Part shown: positions 2,064 through 9,504 of the stretch, piece by piece
How the letters are laid out: every line of letters begins with the position of its first letter
How positions within the stretch are numbered: the stretch's first letter is position 1
NCBI GenBank assembly: GCA_018266735.1
Contig: JAFDZT010000004.1
Location: forward strand, 1 to 64,000
DNA from: Bacteroidota bacterium
GTDB lineage: Bacteria > Bacteroidota > Ignavibacteria > Kapaibacteriales > Kapaibacteriaceae
DNA: 64,000 bases
Direction: 5' to 3'
The notes under the pieces: generated by a model
Databases searched by the model: none
Told to the model about the DNA's origin: nothing
What the model saw: only the letters and a program-made list of their open reading frames with translations
Position numbers and translations under genes: made by a program

Positions 2064-2221
2064 AACAAAACACCAACGTGTACGGGCAACAAGCCAAACG
2101 GCATGTTCAAGGCTCTACCCACTGAGCTACACAACGACGGAGGCCGTCGTTATGACTGGAGTTGAACCAGCGACAATTGAATCCGAAGGAATCCGCTTGT
2201 ACGGCACCGCACACGTTGATG
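2064..2221 (-). ncRNA. yrlA: Bacterial Y RNA (YrlA type) with a complete tRNA-like domain
   Basis: Read on the minus strand, the ends pair in a 15-bp stem (2207-2221 with 2071-2085, two G-U pairs), followed by UUUUGUUU. An asymmetric internal loop and a 6-bp helix (2195-2200/2089-2094) come next; this is where Ro binding is expected. The inner part, 2106-2181, is a permuted tRNA: a 5-bp anticodon-stem equivalent (UUCAA/UUGAA), 5-nt variable loop UUGUC, T arm GCUGG-UUCAACU-CCAGU, 7-bp acceptor helix CAUAACG/CGUUGUG extended by 4 bp and closed by a CCU loop, then UA and D arm GCUC-AGUGGGUA-GAGC. Residues equivalent to U8, A14, G15, G18, G19, C48, U54, U55, C56 and A58 are all present. The RNA begins about 20 nt after the rsr stop, as expected for a Ro-associated RNA that is co-transcribed or independently initiated. 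YrlA RNAs are known tRNA mimics bound by bacterial Ro proteins. The exact ends are inferred. Confidence 0.87.
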
Positions 2222-2239: not shown

Positions 2240-3817
2240 CTACACGTCGATCCGATCGATGGCATCGATCGCCGTGCATCCATTTTCGATCGCAGCCAGG
2301 ATCTCGAAGATGCGCTCATTCCAACCGGCAATGAGATACACATCATTCTGCATGAGCGACAGTGGCGACTGACCAAGACCGGCAAGGTCGAAGAGATACA
2401 GGCGAGCGCCCGGCGCGATCGTTCGCTTGTATTCGGTCCACAGCTCTTGCAGGCGACCCCCATCTCCATTGCTGTTCCACAGCTGACAATCCGTGAAGAT
2501 CATCACCTTGTCCATTTCCACATTGCGTTGGATCAGGTCGAGGATGACGAGATAGCCGTTCGTTGCATATCCCACTTCACCTTCACGTTTGTAGAAGGTC
2601 TGGACGTTTGCCAGGATCGACGTTGCCGGTACATGAATGGTCTTCCATGTATCACCGAACATGCCCACTTCCGAGCAAGCGCACTTCGACCGAAGCAGCA
2701 TGCCTAGCATGAGGCCGATATCGTAGTACATCACAGTTGACCGAGCGGAGATCGGCATCTGCATCGACCCCGATACGTCACATGCGATCAACACGCGCGT
2801 TTCAGCGCCAAATCCGGTGATGTTGGACACGGAAGCCGTCACGGCCCGCTCGAGGGCATCAAGAACAAGACCAACATGACCGTTCCTGACATCTCCCCAT
2901 TTCAAGAGCCTCTGGAGCAATGTCCGCCCCGTGTCGAGCGACGTCTCCTGCAGCAACTGACGATACGCCGACAGGAATCTCAACGGGAACTGCTTCGAGC
3001 GCGCCACACTCTCCGAATCCGACAGCTTGGCACAAACCATTGCGATGTGCGACGATGAGACGTTGGCCGCCAGAATGTTTCGCAGATTCCGGAGCATTGC
3101 CATGTAGCCAAGACCGCCACTCTCGATCAACGATTCCCACGTGGCCGTGATGGCAGCTGTCCGCTCCGCTTCGTTGGCAAACGACCGCTGTCCAACCGCA
3201 CTGAGCTCCGTCTCCCAGGTATACGGTGTCTCCAGTGTTCCATTCACGATCGCGTCGAAGATGACCTGCTGAGCTTCATCCTTTGCCTTCGGGTGGACGA
3301 GGAAAAGCGCATCTCGCAACGAGACCGACGTCTTCCGATCGTACTTGGCGAATTGATAGGCATCGAACCGATTGAACGATGCCGCAAGACCTTTCTGTAC
3401 TTGCTTCGACAACTGACCGAGCTTCTTCACATCTGTACGGTCATTGACAATGGCATAACAGGCGAGTAACTCCGTGATCTCGTCCGCACGAAGGACTATG
3501 CGCTCGATCGTCTTCGAGACCAATGCCGTCCCCGTTGCCTTCTGCGCCAACAGGCATGCCAAATAGACCGGCACAGAGCGCAGATGCATCTTCGTTCGTG
3601 CATAGATGGCCAGCTTCGCAACGAAGACCGGATCACACGCTGCAACGAGTTCGCGAAGACGGACCATTCGGTCCGATCCCGACTCATAGAACGTATCGCT
3701 CAGCGTCGACGTCACAACGGCCGTGTACAGCTCAAGCTCCGGGCGCATGGCATAGGCGACCTCACCCTCGTAGTTCGTCAGGGTCGCTTGCTTCCGCTTG
3801 ATGATGTTGAATCTCAT
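2240..3817 (-). CDS. rsr: Ro60/TROVE-domain RNA-binding protein Rsr
   Basis: Bacterial orthologue of Ro60, a ring of helical repeats that binds Y RNAs and the 3' ends of misfolded RNAs and acts in RNA surveillance with exoribonucleases. The 525 residues have the family start (TNYEGEVAYAMRPELELYTAVV), a helical TROVE region to about residue 340 and a C-terminal von Willebrand A-like domain. The metal-ion-dependent adhesion site DVSGSM lies near residue 350, with a later acidic strand VMIFTDCQLW. Length is normal for the family. ATG 3817 has a strong ribosome binding site (GGAGGA, 5 nt spacing). The Y RNA gene lies directly downstream on the same strand. A 19-bp palindrome identical to one in the rtcB/WYL gap lies 49-67 bases upstream, implying shared regulation. 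Confidence 0.95.
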   Translation of the reverse strand: MRFNIIKRKQATLTNYEGEVAYAMRPELELYTAVVTSTLSDTFYESGSDRMVRLRELVAACDPVFVAKLAIYARTKMHLRSVPVYLACLLAQKATGTALVSKTIERIVLRADEITELLACYAIVNDRTDVKKLGQLSKQVQKGLAASFNRFDAYQFAKYDRKTSVSLRDALFLVHPKAKDEAQQVIFDAIVNGTLETPYTWETELSAVGQRSFANEAERTAAITATWESLIESGGLGYMAMLRNLRNILAANVSSSHIAMVCAKLSDSESVARSKQFPLRFLSAYRQLLQETSLDTGRTLLQRLLKWGDVRNGHVGLVLDALERAVTASVSNITGFGAETRVLIACDVSGSMQMPISARSTVMYYDIGLMLGMLLRSKCACSEVGMFGDTWKTIHVPATSILANVQTFYKREGEVGYATNGYLVILDLIQRNVEMDKVMIFTDCQLWNSNGDGGRLQELWTEYKRTIAPGARLYLFDLAGLGQSPLSLMQNDVYLIAGWNERIFEILAAIENGCTAIDAIDRIDV

Positions 3818-3865
3818 GATGTCCTCCGTGTTGTCCTTTTGTCTGGTACAAACTTCGGAGGCGTG

Positions 3866-3884
3866 TGCGCAGTCTTTCTGCGCA
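3866..3884. promoter_or_regulatory. Palindromic operator in front of rsr (shared with rtcB/WYL gap)
   Basis: TGCGCAG-TCTTT-CTGCGCA, a perfect 7-bp inverted repeat with a 5-bp spacer. The same 19 bases occur at 6696-6714. The site lies between rsr (minus) and the divergent interrupted gene starting at 3893, so it could affect both. The WYL protein at 6742 is the obvious candidate ligand; that assignment is inference. Confidence 0.75.
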
Positions 3885-3892
3885 GGTGAACT

Positions 3893-4885
3893 ATGTTTGC
3901 AGAATATTCTGGAGATATTCTGAAACGACCACTGCCGTTCTTGCTTTTCATGGTGCTTGCCCTACGATGTGTCGGGCAGACACCAACGCCAGCGATCATT
4001 GCTGCTTCGATGGACTCTGTGAAACATCACAGCAAACTTGATGACATCCATACGGCGGCTGAGATCGAAGCGCTGTTGACCTCCATCCATCGCGACTACG
4101 ATGATTTCAGAGTGAACGCATCCTTAGTGTTCAAAGAGAGAAAATGGGACACGACCGACAACGAATGCCAACGGGTTGCAGACTCGCTCCATGTACAGGC
4201 GTAGACAAAGTGCGACGTTGATGGCAATGGATACACCGATCTACTCGTTGTAGGTACATGGTATGACCCTTCTATTCTCTGTCTGATGGACAGTGGCAAC
4301 GCGAGGATCACCGTCAAACACATCACGAGGCGATCATTCCAAGAGATCACGTTTCCGGTCGTATCGCAGGTCAATGGCAAGCCTGCAATACTCTACTACG
4401 CACGTGAGGAGCGCAAGTGGATCGATGACGGGGTGAAACGGAAGTGGCTTGTAGACACCCTCGTCTACATGTTCGGAGATTTTGTCGAGTACAACAAGGC
4501 TCCGGCACATCACGCCATTGGATCGATCTCGTATCGTACGGGACATTGTTTCGGAAAGTGTCCTGTCTTCGATCTCAAGATCAAGTCCGACCGTTCGGCA
4601 ATACTTGAAGCTCGCGAGTTCAATGATAGAGAGGGGGTCTTTACAGCGACGATCGATCCATCTCACTTCGATCAGCTCGTTGAGATCTTGAACTACATCG
4701 ATGTCGCTACACTTGACAGTTCCTATAGTGTCCCATGGACAGACGCCCAATCATGTGTGTTGACCGTCACCTTCGAAGATGGACGTACGATAAAGATCCG
4801 GGACTACGGCTTGCTCGGCACCTACGGTCTACAACGCACATATCGGCTCTTGTTCGACCTTCGGACAAACCAAGTTTGGAAATGA
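3893..4885 (+). pseudogene. Secreted DUF6438-like protein interrupted by an in-frame amber codon
   Basis: Two open segments (3893-4204 and 4286-4885) lie in the same frame and are separated only by TAG at 4202-4204. Reading through it gives continuous, sensible protein: VADSLHVQA-stop-TKCDVDGNGYTDLLVVGTW, the latter resembling a calcium-loop/FG-GAP repeat. The N-terminus has a hydrophobic export signal (PLPFLLFMVLALRCVGQ). The C-terminal ~120 residues (GHCFGKCPVFDLKIKSD onward) resemble the DUF6438 family, whose function is unknown. The start lies 9 bases from the palindromic operator, divergent from rsr, so it may once have belonged to the same regulon. A recent nonsense mutation is the simplest reading; readthrough or a sequencing error is possible. 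A separate downstream start at 4286 has no signal peptide and looks unlikely. Confidence 0.6.
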
Positions 4886-4892
4886 CAGGAGT

Positions 4893-5306
4893 TCACTCCT
4901 CGTTCCGTTTCTCACCGTTCAGAATGACAGGAACTTTTCCGATCCTCCATGCCGCCTTTGCCACCAACAACCATCCCATGATGAAGGCAATTCCACCAAA
5001 TGGTGTGATCATGCCCAAGGCACGCACGCCGGTGAGTGCGAATGCATAGAGCGATCCGCTGAACAGGACGATGCCTGATCCAAAAGCGATCGCTGCCATC
5101 TGCACGGTACGTGAAGGTCGGGAAAGGGCAAGGAGGCCGACGCCGAACAAGGCCAGTGTATGCGAGAGGTGGTAGGAGGCGGCCTTGGTATAGATGTCCA
5201 TCGACGCAATGTCCAGCACATCGCGAAGTGCATGCGCGCCCATGGCACCAAGTGCTACGGCCAATGCGCCGGAGATACCGGCTGCAAGAAGAATTATACG
5301 TGCCAT
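4893..5306 (-). CDS. DUF423 family small membrane protein
   Basis: A 137-residue integral membrane protein with four predicted helices. It has the family hallmark near the N-terminus (SGALAVALGAMGAHALRD) followed by YHLSHTLALFGVGLLAL and a glycine-rich last pair of helices (MITPFGGIAFIMGWLLVAKAAW). DUF423/YgdD proteins are widespread inner-membrane proteins without an established biochemical role. It lies 142 bases downstream of rtcB on the same strand and could share its transcript. It converges on the interrupted gene, whose stop lies 8 bases away. ATG 5306 gives the standard family length. Confidence 0.85.
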   Translation of the reverse strand: MARIILLAAGISGALAVALGAMGAHALRDVLDIASMDIYTKAASYHLSHTLALFGVGLLALSRPSRTVQMAAIAFGSGIVLFSGSLYAFALTGVRALGMITPFGGIAFIMGWLLVAKAAWRIGKVPVILNGEKRNEE

Positions 5307-5448
5307 GGACGAAACTACGAACGATCACAACAACGGCAGGGAGCGATGATCGCGTCGGCGTAAAGGATCGAGATCCCTTCTTTGACTGAGAAGAACTCCG
5401 ACGCTACGGCATCCCTACCGTGTGTTCACGTTTCAATGTACTTCGAGG

Positions 5449-6633
5449 TCAATCCTCCGGTCGTTCCTTGGCACTGGCCATGCGCACGATCCTTGGTTGG
5501 AATGTGGCGACCACGTCCACAAGCGCTTCCTGCGCTGCCATCACGTCGTGAATGTTCTTGTAGACCATCGGCGCTTCATCGACATCGGAACCGATGAGCG
5601 TCACGTCGTGATCCCGTAGCATCTGCTTCCACGCATGTCGGTCCACGGTGCGATGCGCCACTCCCCGACTCATGCGTCTGCCTGCTCCGTGTGAGGCGGA
5701 ATGGAGGGAGGGGGCATGGCCCTTGCCGCGCACCACGAAACCCGGTGTGCTCATGCTGCCCGGAATGATGCCCATCACTCCTTCGCCGGCCGGCGTTGCA
5801 CCCTTACGGTGCACCATCACTTCTGTCCCGTCGGCCAAGTGCTCCAACCATGCAAAGTTGTGGTGGTTCTCCACGATGAGGCGAGGCTCGAGCTGCATCG
5901 CATGCGAGATCTTGCCATGGATCTCGTGGTGGTTGGCCTTCGCATACTCACCTGCAAGATTCATGGCGACCCAATACTCCTGTCCCGCTTCCGAATGCAT
6001 GTCCAACCATGCCAAGTGCTTTGCTTCTTCAGGAAGACCGGAGTTCTGCATGGCGATCTTTGAATACATCGAAGCGAGATTACCTCCGAAACCGCGCGAA
6101 CCGGAGTGCGTGAGCAAGGCAACATACTTGCCCTCGGGGAGCGATTCATGTTCATCCGACTCGACCGAGAGGATGCCCCATTCGGCGAAGTGATTCCCCG
6201 TGCCGGACGTGCCAAGCTGATGATAGGCCCGATCCTTCAGGTCGCGGATGGCCTTGGTAGCGCCCCACTCCGGTCGGTCAAAGAGTGACGTGTCGTGATG
6301 CTCCTTCGTTGTGGACCCCAATCCGAAGTGCGTATGCTTGAGAAGCATGGCATGAAGTTCCCGTCGGTGCTCATCGAATCGTTCAGCCGGAATATCGTAC
6401 ACACTCAAACACATACGACAGGCAATGTCCACTCCCACAGCATATGGGATGATCGTATCAGCGCGTGTTGCCAAGACCCCGCCGATCGGAAGTCCGTATC
6501 CAACGTGGGCATCCGGCATCAGCGCGCCGGCGACGGCGATCGGGAGCTGCATGGCCGTGTTCATCTGGTCGAGCGCTCCCTGTTCGATGTGCTCGCGTCC
6601 GTAGATCGGATAGGTTGACATGTGTTGTTCCAT
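5449..6633 (-). CDS. rtcB: RtcB-family RNA ligase
   Basis: GTP- and Mn2+-dependent RNA ligase that joins 2',3'-cyclic phosphate or 3'-phosphate ends to 5'-OH ends, used in RNA repair. Visible motifs are MPDAHVGYGLPIGGV, the metal-binding VGVDIACRMC (Asp and Cys), LLTHSGSRGFGG, the NHHNFAWLEH loop, HRKGATPAGEG and the guanylate-accepting histidine motif SASHGAGRRMSRG. At about 394 residues it belongs to the shorter RtcB class. The start is uncertain: 6633 fits the family best, 6621 and 6666 are alternatives, and no clear ribosome binding site decides. The palindromic operator lies upstream, between rtcB and the divergent WYL regulator. No RtcA cyclase or RtcR activator is present in the window. 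Confidence 0.92.
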   Translation of the reverse strand: MEQHMSTYPIYGREHIEQGALDQMNTAMQLPIAVAGALMPDAHVGYGLPIGGVLATRADTIIPYAVGVDIACRMCLSVYDIPAERFDEHRRELHAMLLKHTHFGLGSTTKEHHDTSLFDRPEWGATKAIRDLKDRAYHQLGTSGTGNHFAEWGILSVESDEHESLPEGKYVALLTHSGSRGFGGNLASMYSKIAMQNSGLPEEAKHLAWLDMHSEAGQEYWVAMNLAGEYAKANHHEIHGKISHAMQLEPRLIVENHHNFAWLEHLADGTEVMVHRKGATPAGEGVMGIIPGSMSTPGFVVRGKGHAPSLHSASHGAGRRMSRGVAHRTVDRHAWKQMLRDHDVTLIGSDVDEAPMVYKNIHDVMAAQEALVDVVATFQPRIVRMASAKERPED

Positions 6634-6693
6634 TGTTCTGCGTTGTATCGTTCGTTCAGTGTTCATGATCGTCGAATGCAAATTTCAGGGTAT

Positions 6694-6716
6694 ACTGCGC
6701 AGTCTTTCTGCGCAGT
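6694..6716. promoter_or_regulatory. Palindromic operator in the rtcB/WYL intergenic region
   Basis: A 9-bp inverted repeat (ACTGCGCAG) around the spacer TCTTT. The inner 19 bases (6696-6714) are identical to the site in front of rsr. It lies between rtcB (minus) and the WYL gene (plus), so one bound regulator could control both and itself. A TATACT element (6691-6696) overlaps its left edge. An A-tract of about ten bases follows just before the WYL start. Confidence 0.78.
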
Positions 6717-6741
6717 AAAAAAAAAAACGTGAAGAGCGACC

Positions 6742-7785
6742 ATGCCGATCAATCGCAATGCCCTGATCCGATACCGCACCATTGACGGATGCCTTCGGAA
6801 TCGACGCCGACGGTGGACGTTGGAGGATCTCATCGATGCCTGTTCCGATGCACTCTACGAATACGAAGGCATCGACAAAGGTGTGAGCAGACGTACGGTT
6901 CAGGCGGACCTGGAGGTGATGCGAAGCGGAAAGCTCGGCTACGAGGCACCGATCGTCGTCATAGAGAAGCGCTACTACACGTATGCGGAGGCGGACTTCT
7001 CGATCTCGAACATCCCGCTCGATGCGCAAGACCTGAACGTGTTGGCAGAGGCCTCGGCATTGTTGCAACAGTTCAAGGGTCTTCCCCACTCTGCCGATCT
7101 CACCGAGATGGTCCTGAAGCTCGAGGACAAGATCTATGCAGGAAGATCGCAAGCGCGACCGGTGGTCGAGTTTGAGCGAAACGACCTGCTGAAAGGATTG
7201 CAGTGGATCGATGTGCTTCGCCGAGCCGCCGTCGATCAGCGCTCGGTGTCGGTCACCTATCGGTCATTCCGCGCGCGCTACGCATCGACGTTCCTGTTCA
7301 GCACGTACCTATTGAAAGAGTATCGCAACCGATGGTTCGCCATCGGCGTTGACCATCGGCGCCGTACACAGTTGGTGATCCTGGCGATCGATCGGATCGA
7401 GGACATTGCGGATGTGTCTGACATCGACGATGACTATACACCGAACACGCTCGCGGATCTTGCCACGTATTTCGAACATGTGATCGGCGTAACGCGAGAT
7501 CAGAAGAGCACTCCGCGCAAGATCGTCTTTCGCGTCAGCACGAGTGATGCACCCTACATTGCTACGAAGCCACTTCATCCCAGTCAGCACCTTGAACGAA
7601 CCGAACCAAATGGTCACGTGTTCTCGATCAACGTGATCCCGAACTTCGAGCTCGAACGTGAACTTCTTGGATTCGGTGCCGCCCTCGAGGTCTTGCATCC
7701 TCCGGGACTTCGTGCGCGGATCGCCACCATTCACCGACAGGCCGGGCAACTGTATGACGCACCTTCATCGAGCACCACCACCTGA
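6742..7785 (+). CDS. WYL-domain transcriptional regulator
   Basis: A 347-residue regulator. The N-terminal ~90 residues form a winged helix-turn-helix (TLEDLIDACSDAL, then GVSRRTVQADLEVMR). A linker, a central WYL (Sm-like) domain around residues 160-230 (VSVTYRSFRARYASTF, then YRNRWFAIGVDHRRR) and a C-terminal WCX-type domain (KIVFRVSTSDAPYIATK) follow. WYL domains are thought to sense nucleic-acid or nucleotide ligands and often regulate defence or RNA/DNA-damage genes. It is transcribed divergently from rtcB across the palindromic operator that also precedes rsr, so the likely role is control of this RNA-repair regulon. The start ATG follows GTGAAGAGCGACC. The ligand is unknown. Confidence 0.9.
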   Translation: MPINRNALIRYRTIDGCLRNRRRRWTLEDLIDACSDALYEYEGIDKGVSRRTVQADLEVMRSGKLGYEAPIVVIEKRYYTYAEADFSISNIPLDAQDLNVLAEASALLQQFKGLPHSADLTEMVLKLEDKIYAGRSQARPVVEFERNDLLKGLQWIDVLRRAAVDQRSVSVTYRSFRARYASTFLFSTYLLKEYRNRWFAIGVDHRRRTQLVILAIDRIEDIADVSDIDDDYTPNTLADLATYFEHVIGVTRDQKSTPRKIVFRVSTSDAPYIATKPLHPSQHLERTEPNGHVFSINVIPNFELERELLGFGAALEVLHPPGLRARIATIHRQAGQLYDAPSSSTTT

Positions 7786-7791
7786 TCGCCA

Positions 7792-7971
7792 TCACGTGCG
7801 CTGAAGGAACCGTGCCACCTTCGACTCGAGAAGCTCCGCGCTGAGCGGAATGGTCGCATCGTTCAGGAGTCCGGCTGAATCCGTTTCGACGCCGGGCCAC
7901 GATGCGAACACCCGCTCTGCCGTTGGGCTTCGCAGCTTGTTCTGGCTGCAGATGAACAGTGCGCGGATCAC
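7792..7971 (-). pseudogene. Internally deleted low-molecular-weight tyrosine phosphatase-like gene
   Basis: Starts at GTG 7971, overlapping the stop of the preceding gene (GTGA), so translation is probably coupled. The 59 residues begin with a clear phosphatase P-loop, ALFICSQNKLRSPTAERVF (CX5R), followed by SAGLLNDATIPLSAELL. Full-length relatives have ~105 residues with a helix reading roughly EWADLIFVME after LSAE. Here the sequence jumps directly to ESKVARFLQRT, which resembles the family C-terminus. This fits an in-frame deletion of ~45 central residues, leaving the catalytic loop but no core fold. It is therefore likely non-functional. Confidence 0.6.
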
Positions 7972-8162
7972 AGTTGAAGGGTTTGCAGCACCTTGTACAT
8001 CACGATCGCCGGCCAGACAAGTGCCTTGAGAATACCGAGTGCGCCATCCCAGAAGCCCGTGGACTGTTGCACGAAATAGACGGCGGCGCCAACGGTGGCC
8101 AAGAACCACACGAGGCCCCACATGCCGTCATTGCTGACGATGACGTTCTTCTCTGATGCCAT
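7968..8162 (-). CDS. Small two-helix membrane protein
   Basis: A 64-residue protein with two predicted membrane helices (GLVWFLATVGAAVYFVQQ and ALGILKALVWPAIVMYKVL) around a short loop with TGFWDG. Similar small proteins of unknown function occur in many bacteria. It overlaps the phosphatase relic by four bases. The membrane protein at 8199-8540 lies 36 bases upstream on the same strand, so the three probably form one transcript. No function can be assigned. Confidence 0.75.
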   Translation of the reverse strand: MASEKNVIVSNDGMWGLVWFLATVGAAVYFVQQSTGFWDGALGILKALVWPAIVMYKVLQTLQL

Positions 8163-8198
8163 GACCCTGTCTCCGTAGAGTGTGATGGAAATGCGGTC

Positions 8199-8540
8199 TT
8201 ATGAGACACGCCGCCGTTGACGTTGCAGCACGCCGTCCACAAGGAACAATGCCGCGGGCAGTGCGAACAGTGCAAAGTACGGTCCACCCGGGAATCTGCC
8301 ACTGGCAACGTACATCCATCCGTAGAAGATCGACAGGCTTACGACAGAGAAGATGGAACCGACCAACGGCCTCCACCAAGCGATCCCAAAGCCGACCACA
8401 AGTCCGATCGGAAAGAAGAGAAGGGCGATCGTCTCCTTCGGCGTGGCATTCAGATGTTCGGAACCTCCGAACATGAACATGAAGAGGAGTCCTGCACAGA
8501 AGAGTGAAAGAAGTCGTGCGGACCAGCGAAGAGCAAGCAT
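8199..8540 (-). CDS. Four-helix membrane protein of unknown function
   Basis: A 113-residue protein with four predicted helices: LLSLFCAGLLFMFMFGG, IALLFFPIGLVVGFGIAWW, IFSVVSLSIFYGWMYVA and YFALFALPAALFLVDGVL. It ends in a basic tail (QRQRRRVS) placing the C-terminus in the cytoplasm. It lies upstream of the small membrane protein on the same strand and divergent from the methyltransferase. I recognise only a generic small integral membrane protein and give no function. Confidence 0.75.
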   Translation of the reverse strand: MLALRWSARLLSLFCAGLLFMFMFGGSEHLNATPKETIALLFFPIGLVVGFGIAWWRPLVGSIFSVVSLSIFYGWMYVASGRFPGGPYFALFALPAALFLVDGVLQRQRRRVS

Positions 8541-8658
8541 ACCATACCAAGATGTTGGAACAACTGCGGTGAGCGGCGCTCGAACGAACGAGGTACCGAA
8601 GGGTTACGTTACCACGAAAAACGAGTTAATTTTCCCCACTCATCGAAAGGATACCGTC

Positions 8659-9504
8659 ATGGACGAACATCTCCATCAGATCCGCGAGCAACAGCGTGCA
8701 TCGTGGGACAAGTTCTCTGGGGGTTGGAAGAAGTGGGACGACCTGACCATGGAGTTTCTTGAGCCCGTGGGCAGTGCCATCATTCGATCGCTTGCACCGC
8801 AAGGATCGCACGCGGTGCTTGACATTGCGGCCGGAACGGGTGAGCCAGGTCTGACGATCGCGTCGATGCTCACGGACGGACATGTGGTGATCACCGACCT
8901 GTCCGAGAACATGCTCGACATTGCCCGCGAGAATGCCGAACGTCGCGGCATCACGAACATTCGCACGCAGGCATGCGATGTATGTGAGCTGCCGTTCGAG
9001 GACAATAGCTTCGATCGCATTTCCTGTCGCTTCGGATTCATGTTCTTCCCCGACATGGAACTCGCGGCGTCGGAAATGGCACGGGTGCTCAAGCCCGGTG
9101 GGAAGCTCTCAACGGCCGTGTGGAATGTGGCCGAAAAGAACTTCTGGGTGACGGCCATCATGAGCTCCATCAAGAACCATCTCGATCTGCCACAACCACC
9201 GGTAGGCGCACCGGGCATGTTTCGTTGTGCGGCAGACGGTATGATGGTGGAGCTGTTTCGATCCGTTGGCCTCAAGAACCTCGAACAACACGAGATCCCT
9301 TCCACCTTGCCAAGCGGTACTGTGGACGTGTATTGGGACATGATGAATGACATTGCTGCACCGGTCGTCTCGGCGCTGGCTGCAGCCGACGAGGCGCAGG
9401 TTGCCGCGATCCGTCGCGATGTGTACGAGGCAGTGAACCGACGGCATCCCGATGGAAACGTCGTGATCGATGCCAGTGCTCTGGTCATTGTCGGTGAGAA
9501 GTAA
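8659..9504 (+). CDS. Class I SAM-dependent methyltransferase
   Basis: A 281-residue cytoplasmic methyltransferase. SAM-binding motif I is VLDIAAGTGEPGLTIA; the acidic ribose-binding position is in VVITDLSENMLDIAR; motif IV-like CELPFEDNSFDRISCRFGFMFFPD is of the UbiE/Coq5-like type, followed by the ARVLKPGGKL motif. The substrate is unknown; menaquinone-type methyltransferases are close in style, but the C-terminal half is not diagnostic. ATG 8659 is preceded by GAAAGG at good spacing; upstream in-frame sequence lies in the shadow of the opposite-strand membrane gene. The Crp-family gene follows after 39 bases on the same strand. Confidence 0.88.
   Translation: MDEHLHQIREQQRASWDKFSGGWKKWDDLTMEFLEPVGSAIIRSLAPQGSHAVLDIAAGTGEPGLTIASMLTDGHVVITDLSENMLDIARENAERRGITNIRTQACDVCELPFEDNSFDRISCRFGFMFFPDMELAASEMARVLKPGGKLSTAVWNVAEKNFWVTAIMSSIKNHLDLPQPPVGAPGMFRCAADGMMVELFRSVGLKNLEQHEIPSTLPSGTVDVYWDMMNDIAAPVVSALAAADEAQVAAIRRDVYEAVNRRHPDGNVVIDASALVIVGEK

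Follow-up and report, generated by a model that had tools for sequence, protein, structure and literature searches.

The question raised by this locus is how RNA-repair genes are controlled in a Bacteroidota bacterium in which the same 19-bp palindrome, TGCGCAGTCTTTCTGCGCA, stands before rsr and again between rtcB and the divergent gene of a WYL/WCX protein. The window analyzed is a stretch of 64,000 nucleotides (assembly GCA_018266735.1, contig JAFDZT010000004.1, positions 1 to 64,000). The interpretation advanced here is that this palindrome is bound as an operator by the neighboring WYL/WCX protein, and that this protein is a transcription factor dedicated to a regulon of RNA-repair genes. 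On the strength of sequence comparison, it is highly probable that a WYL activator resembling DriD and PafBC would run this regulon in place of RtcR and sigma-54.

The palindrome and its gene neighborhood

The coordinates of the features are presented in Table 1. The predicted Y RNA falls below the gathering score of 69 for Rfam RF02553, and no Y RNA was found in the relatives at this threshold. In L032 (66-180), L197 (5001-5065), and L276 (4919-4994), YrlA-like matches below the threshold lie close to rsr or downstream of it, and L196 (10892-11194) and L191 (3135-3395) have two such matches each. The start of rtcB was placed at MSTYPIYG by comparison with relatives, and the TTG at 6681 belongs to the predicted -7 box. 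Most Bacteroidota RtcB proteins encoded behind the operator carry an N-terminal extension of ~90 residues that is missing from the RtcB of the window (L081, 3765-5219, and other loci of the RTCB2 type). A DUF6438 gene (3893-4885, plus strand) starts 9 bp from operator copy 1 and is interrupted by an in-frame TAG at 4202-4204; it is either a decayed gene or the result of a sequence error.

Table 1. Positions of genes and predicted regulatory features within the window
Feature	Position	Strand	Evidence or remark
YrlA-like Y RNA, tRNA-like	2092..2199	-	Directly downstream of rsr; Rfam RF02553, 39.6 bits, E 5.9e-6
rsr, Ro60 orthologue, TROVE and vWA domains	2240..3817	-	Pfam PF05731, E 9.9e-30
GAAGTTTG, predicted -7 box of the rsr promoter	3849..3856	-	8 nt from operator, TTTG at +12
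Operator copy 1 (predicted)	3866..3884 (21-mer 3865-3885)	-	Before rsr; kept before rsr in relatives
rtcB, RNA ligase	5449..6621	-	Pfam PF01139, E 5.4e-81
GAAATTTG, predicted -7 box of the rtcB promoter	6679..6686	-	Spacing as in the rsr promoter
Operator copy 2 (predicted)	6696..6714 (25-bp palindrome 6693-6717)	-	Kept before rtcB and the WYL gene in relatives
WYL/WCX transcription factor, 347 aa, predicted regulator	6742..7785	+	Pfam WYL 1.4e-9, WCX 1.6e-13
Predicted recognition-helix codons, residues 50-62	6889..6927	+	R50 6889-6891, Q54 6901-6903; AF2 model and class comparison

The initial annotation had reported an identical 19-mer at the two places, hard to explain by chance, and had named many unrelated genomic copies as a result that would refute a regulon. 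Each copy was recovered with 0 mismatches, and shuffles of the window yielded 0.04 matches at three or fewer mismatches. The pattern TGCGCAGN5CTGCGCA occurs exactly twice in the 3.35-Mb genome and not at all in the reversed control. With up to three mismatches only two further places were detected, both within long open frames. The motif is not scattered, and chance and a multitude of unrelated copies were ruled out by the shuffle and whole-genome counts. Each copy occupies a genuine promoter gap, and the second can be extended to a palindrome of 25 bp. Two identical copies separated by 2.8 kb might also reflect a chance match or a recent local duplication of 19 bp, an explanation that can be dismissed for practical purposes given the shuffle count and the uniqueness of the element in the genome. 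The flanks of the two copies differ, and the retention of the element in orthologous promoters of many genera has already refuted a chance or duplicated origin.

Conservation of the putative operator and its link to the WYL protein

Hundreds of Bacteroidota stretches encode an orthologue of the WYL protein, and the best 80 loci were fetched. A divergent rtcB is present in most of these, rsr in many, and the palindrome in nearly all. When one mismatch was allowed, 94 of the 100 sites in the 80 loci fell within the 400 nt upstream of RNA-repair or WYL genes, a fraction that makes up 7.9% of the sequence; shuffled DNA gives one site. The operator is confined to RNA-repair promoters by this count, and to exactly two promoters in its own genome. 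The site is mostly located ~40-50 nt before the start of rsr, which either adjoins the WYL gene or lies kilobases away. Sites were also identified before Hen1-Pnkp (L051, L062, L084, L093), RlaP (L097, L102, L108, L192), slipin-rtcB (L189, L207), and a second RtcB-like protein (L208). In flavobacterial L204 the site precedes a T4-Rnl1-type ligase and a type-1 Hen1, of the Pnkp1-Rnl-Hen1 kind. Judged from the gene contents, RNA repair is the common theme of the recognizable targets. Because the loci share ancestry, the counts are not independent of one another; the nearest approach to independent replicates is the occurrence of one geometry at different genes (rtcB, rsr, hen1, rlaP). Two observations count against the proposed interpretation: the flavobacterial sites deviate in arms and spacer, and some WYL genes have no recognizable site within 700 nt.

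Several further genes were noted at these loci. The RNA-repair cluster of flavobacterial L204 also contains, downstream of a copy of the operator, a gene for a RING-domain protein of the MXAN_6230/SCO0854 family (6739-8979, minus strand). Chryseolinea serpens has more operator copies before small genes of unknown family (L190, L191, L193, and L194, with the site at 3001 in each), and these genes are candidates for new RNA-repair factors. In a group of Chitinophagaceae the WYL gene is preceded by two operator copies, mostly ~41 and ~152 nt upstream (L229, L233-L237, L239, L241-L243, L247, and L249).

A bare phylum-wide count of the pattern was indecisive because matches with random spacers also turned up in genomes that lack the WYL gene. 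It was replaced by an analysis of promoters against the presence of the WYL gene, with an orthologue defined by an E value below 1e-60. Such an orthologue is encoded in 34 of 296 Bacteroidota genomes, and in 14 of the 17 that possess a close rsr. The site is present in the rsr promoter of all 14 genomes with the WYL orthologue and in none of the six rsr promoters examined from genomes without it (three with a close and three with a distant Rsr). In genome G253 the site precedes rsr although the WYL gene is 1.6 Mb away.

In a clade of Chitinophagaceae the arms read TGTGCA rather than TGCGCA, and the helix-turn-helix of the WYL protein carries S[LMV]RTxR in place of S[RK]RTxQ. Arms of the TGCGCA type accompany proteins with Q54 (117/117) and arms of the TGTGCA type accompany proteins with R54 (11/11). 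One Q54 protein has both kinds of site in its locus, and nine proteins have no site. Only positions 50, 54, 59, and 102 of the 347 fully separate the two classes, and the first three of these four belong to the recognition helix predicted from the AF2 model (residues 50-62). The other RNA-repair promoters of the R54 genomes (rtcB, rlaP, slipin, rsr), distant ones included, likewise carry TGTGCA, and TGCGCA sites are absent from these genomes except for chance matches. The switch arose once, in a clade of 12 members, and thus represents a single evolutionary event, though one that involves multiple sites; that it is only one event counts against the proposed interpretation.

Distance and conservation alone would suit any regulator, and the palindrome could in principle be bound by another, unlinked transcription factor, with the WYL gene as a mere fellow member of the regulon. 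This possibility is given very little weight since the site is gone from rsr promoters where the WYL gene is absent, and since the arms and the recognition helix, with three of the four discriminating residues, change on one branch. These correlations strongly support the view that the WYL protein binds the palindrome; direct binding is inferred in the absence of binding data. The single regulon under the adjacent WYL protein, as proposed in the initial annotation, is supported by each comparison made: the same palindrome precedes RNA-repair genes across Bacteroidota, some of the targets are distant from the WYL gene, the rsr site follows the presence of this gene, and the arm sequence changes together with the recognition helix. 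The same annotation set this control apart from that of enterobacterial rtcBA-rsr by the sigma-54 activator RtcR. In Salmonella and E. coli the rsr-yrlBA-rtcBA genes are under RtcR and sigma-54 (PMC7790460). The distinction is borne out by the absence of RtcR (PF06956) from the whole genome, for which the E. coli control was positive. Near rtcB no match to the sigma-54 element TGGCACN5TTGC with fewer than three mismatches was detected. A single match with two mismatches precedes the start of rsr by ~230 nt and lies off the promoter. Control by sigma-54 and RtcR was rejected in view of the missing RtcR and the lack of a good -24/-12 site at the rsr and rtcB promoters.

Promoter geometry and proposed mode of action

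When read toward rsr or rtcB, each palindrome is followed by 12 nt and then by TTTG (3849-3852 and 6679-6682). Since the TTTG follows both copies at the same distance, the repeat amounts to a ~36-bp promoter and extends beyond the 19 bp, a feature not recorded in the initial annotation. The composite of palindrome, 12 nt, and TTTG occurs without mismatch at only those two places in the genome, and weaker matches are at the control level. The sigma-A -7 box of Flavobacteriaceae and Bacteroidota is TAnnTTTG at -12 to -5 (PMC9723704). The transcription starts inferred from the predicted -7 boxes are at ~3844 for rsr and ~6674 for rtcB. Both boxes begin with GA instead of TA, which counts against the proposed interpretation. 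The 21-mer spans about -41 to -21, the region normally taken up by the -33 box in a Bacteroidota promoter. Across the promoters compared, TTTG begins at exactly +12 relative to the 21-mer for 64 of 65 rtcB promoters, 25 of 38 rsr promoters (with four more at +13), and 9 of 10 other promoters. The remaining nine rsr promoters have no TTTG at either position and also count against the interpretation. A conserved -33 TTTG at normal spacing was not found on the repair-side promoters. In the direction of the WYL gene, 76 of 88 sites contain a TTTG within the arm, at a possible position for a -33 box.

The same inverted repeat could form a stable hairpin, with an A-run after copy 2, and might act as RNA, either as a 5'-UTR hairpin or as a terminator in the rsr and rtcB transcripts. 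The -7 box is located downstream of the palindrome in the direction of each gene, and the palindrome should therefore lie outside both transcripts. A function as RNA was ruled out by this promoter position and is considered exceedingly improbable. In addition, the asymmetric spacer holds its orientation, a terminator would be senseless between divergent starts, and the changes in the arms track a DNA-binding helix.

Both the WYL domain (PF13280, 38.3 bits, cut-off 21.8) and the WCX domain (PF25583, 51.3 bits, cut-off 23.9) are present in the regulator. No Pfam helix-turn-helix match was obtained. The AF2 model (mean pLDDT 87) contains an N-terminal winged helix-turn-helix with helices 2-19, 27-42, and 50-62 and strands 71-74 and 78-81. 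In the Foldseek search the activators DriD and PafBC rank above the repressors CapW and BrxR. Overall superposition of the model on DriD is poor (TM ~0.5, rmsd 15-19 Å) and the domain arrangement is thus uncertain. No named NCBIfam family was found for the protein, and PADLOC matched it to nothing beyond generic WYL models, apart from a weak match to Cas3c. Residues of the WYL domain such as N196, R197, and W198 are invariant. WYL domains of DriD, PafBC, and SiwR bind ssDNA, and WYL1 binds ssRNA (PMC10693628). The inducing ligand is inferred by analogy to be a product of RNA damage, and damaged RNA would be the logical signal.

In the proposed mechanism, a WYL homodimer would place its winged helix-turn-helix domains on the two 7-bp arms of an operator at about -41 to -21, in the place of the -33 box and in fixed phase to the -7 box. 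The WYL domain would take up a nucleic-acid ligand, and the protein would then bring the sigma-A RNA polymerase to promoters without a -33 box, as described for PafBC and DriD. The regulon in its own genome would comprise rsr with the YrlA-like Y RNA, rtcB, and probably the WYL gene itself. Sequence comparison establishes the element, the regulon, its link to the WYL protein, and the promoter geometry; activation and autoregulation, like binding and the RNA-damage ligand, are inferred, and there are no expression data.

Activation is the most likely mode of action because the site occupies the -33 place in fixed phase to the -7 box, and it is favored over repression with reasonable confidence. 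The WYL protein might instead block the promoters until a ligand frees it, in the manner of CapW and BrxR, two repressors of the WYL type with a related fold. Such a mode would fit the overlap between the site and the promoter core, and the TTTG within the arm in the direction of the WYL gene is compatible with autorepression. Repression is nonetheless rather unlikely in view of the absence of a normally spaced -33 TTTG from the repair-side promoters, the single fixed distance from operator to core across unrelated genes, which is typical of activators, and the closest folds, which are those of the activators DriD and PafBC. It is proposed more tentatively, as an idea with somewhat less than an even chance, that the activator uses its Sm-like WYL domain to sense broken RNA directly, such as fragments with 5'-OH or 2',3'-cyclic-phosphate ends, and then turns on every RNA-repair pathway of the cell together through sigma adaptation. 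If so, this would be an RNA-damage response of the Bacteroidota and an RNA counterpart of SOS and PafBC.

Comparison with known regulatory systems

The main survey of RNA-repair neighborhoods (RtcB, Hen1-Pnkp, RlaP, and slipin) is reportedly that of Burroughs and Aravind from 2016. RlaP is treated there, as cited in PMC7824862, and the enzymes found under this operator are reportedly those covered by the survey. No account of RNA-repair genes controlled by a WYL regulator or through a palindromic operator was found in the literature; the 2016 survey lay outside the search, and priority for the gene association is not judged. Induction of RNA repair is known mainly from the proteobacterial RtcR, and a testable regulator, operator, and promoter are now available for a whole phylum. 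Since the WYL protein appears to read the palindrome before RNA-repair genes, one protein probably switches on several pathways at once, which would tie RtcB, Ro60 and Y RNA, Hen1-Pnkp, and RlaP into one program. Two residues are predicted to set the operator specificity, and the operator can serve as a search tool for unknown RNA-repair genes.

CapW (CBASS) and BrxR (BREX) are also WYL transcription factors of related fold that regulate neighboring genes, but they are repressors in phage defense with a weaker fold match and no RNA-repair genes. DriD from Caulobacter (PDB 8tp8, 9pfq) is a homodimeric WYL activator and the best Foldseek match; it shares only ~17% identity and controls a DNA-damage regulon. 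PafBC is an activator of a repair regulon with the same order of winged helix-turn-helix, WYL, and WCX domains, and it does not need a normal -35 box. The promoters of PafBC contain TTGTCRGTG-8 nt-TANNNT (PMC5656591), and the protein engages the -26 motif and inserts between the DNA and sigma domain 4 (PMC11804915). In both systems exactly 8 nt separate the core box from the site, which occupies the -26/-33 region, as in the arrangement TGCGCAG-8 nt-core box observed here. The mycobacterial PafBC is a heterodimer that recognizes a one-sided motif, responds to ssDNA, and serves DNA repair, whereas the present system has a perfect palindrome, one gene, and RNA-repair targets. RtcR is similar in that a dedicated regulator adjoins and diverges from rtcB and controls rtcB (and rsr with Y RNA); its ligand is damaged tRNA. 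RtcR is a CARF-AAA+ bEBP and works with another sigma factor, whereas the protein described here combines wHTH, WYL, and WCX domains, its operator overlaps the promoter core, and many more repair pathways are included.
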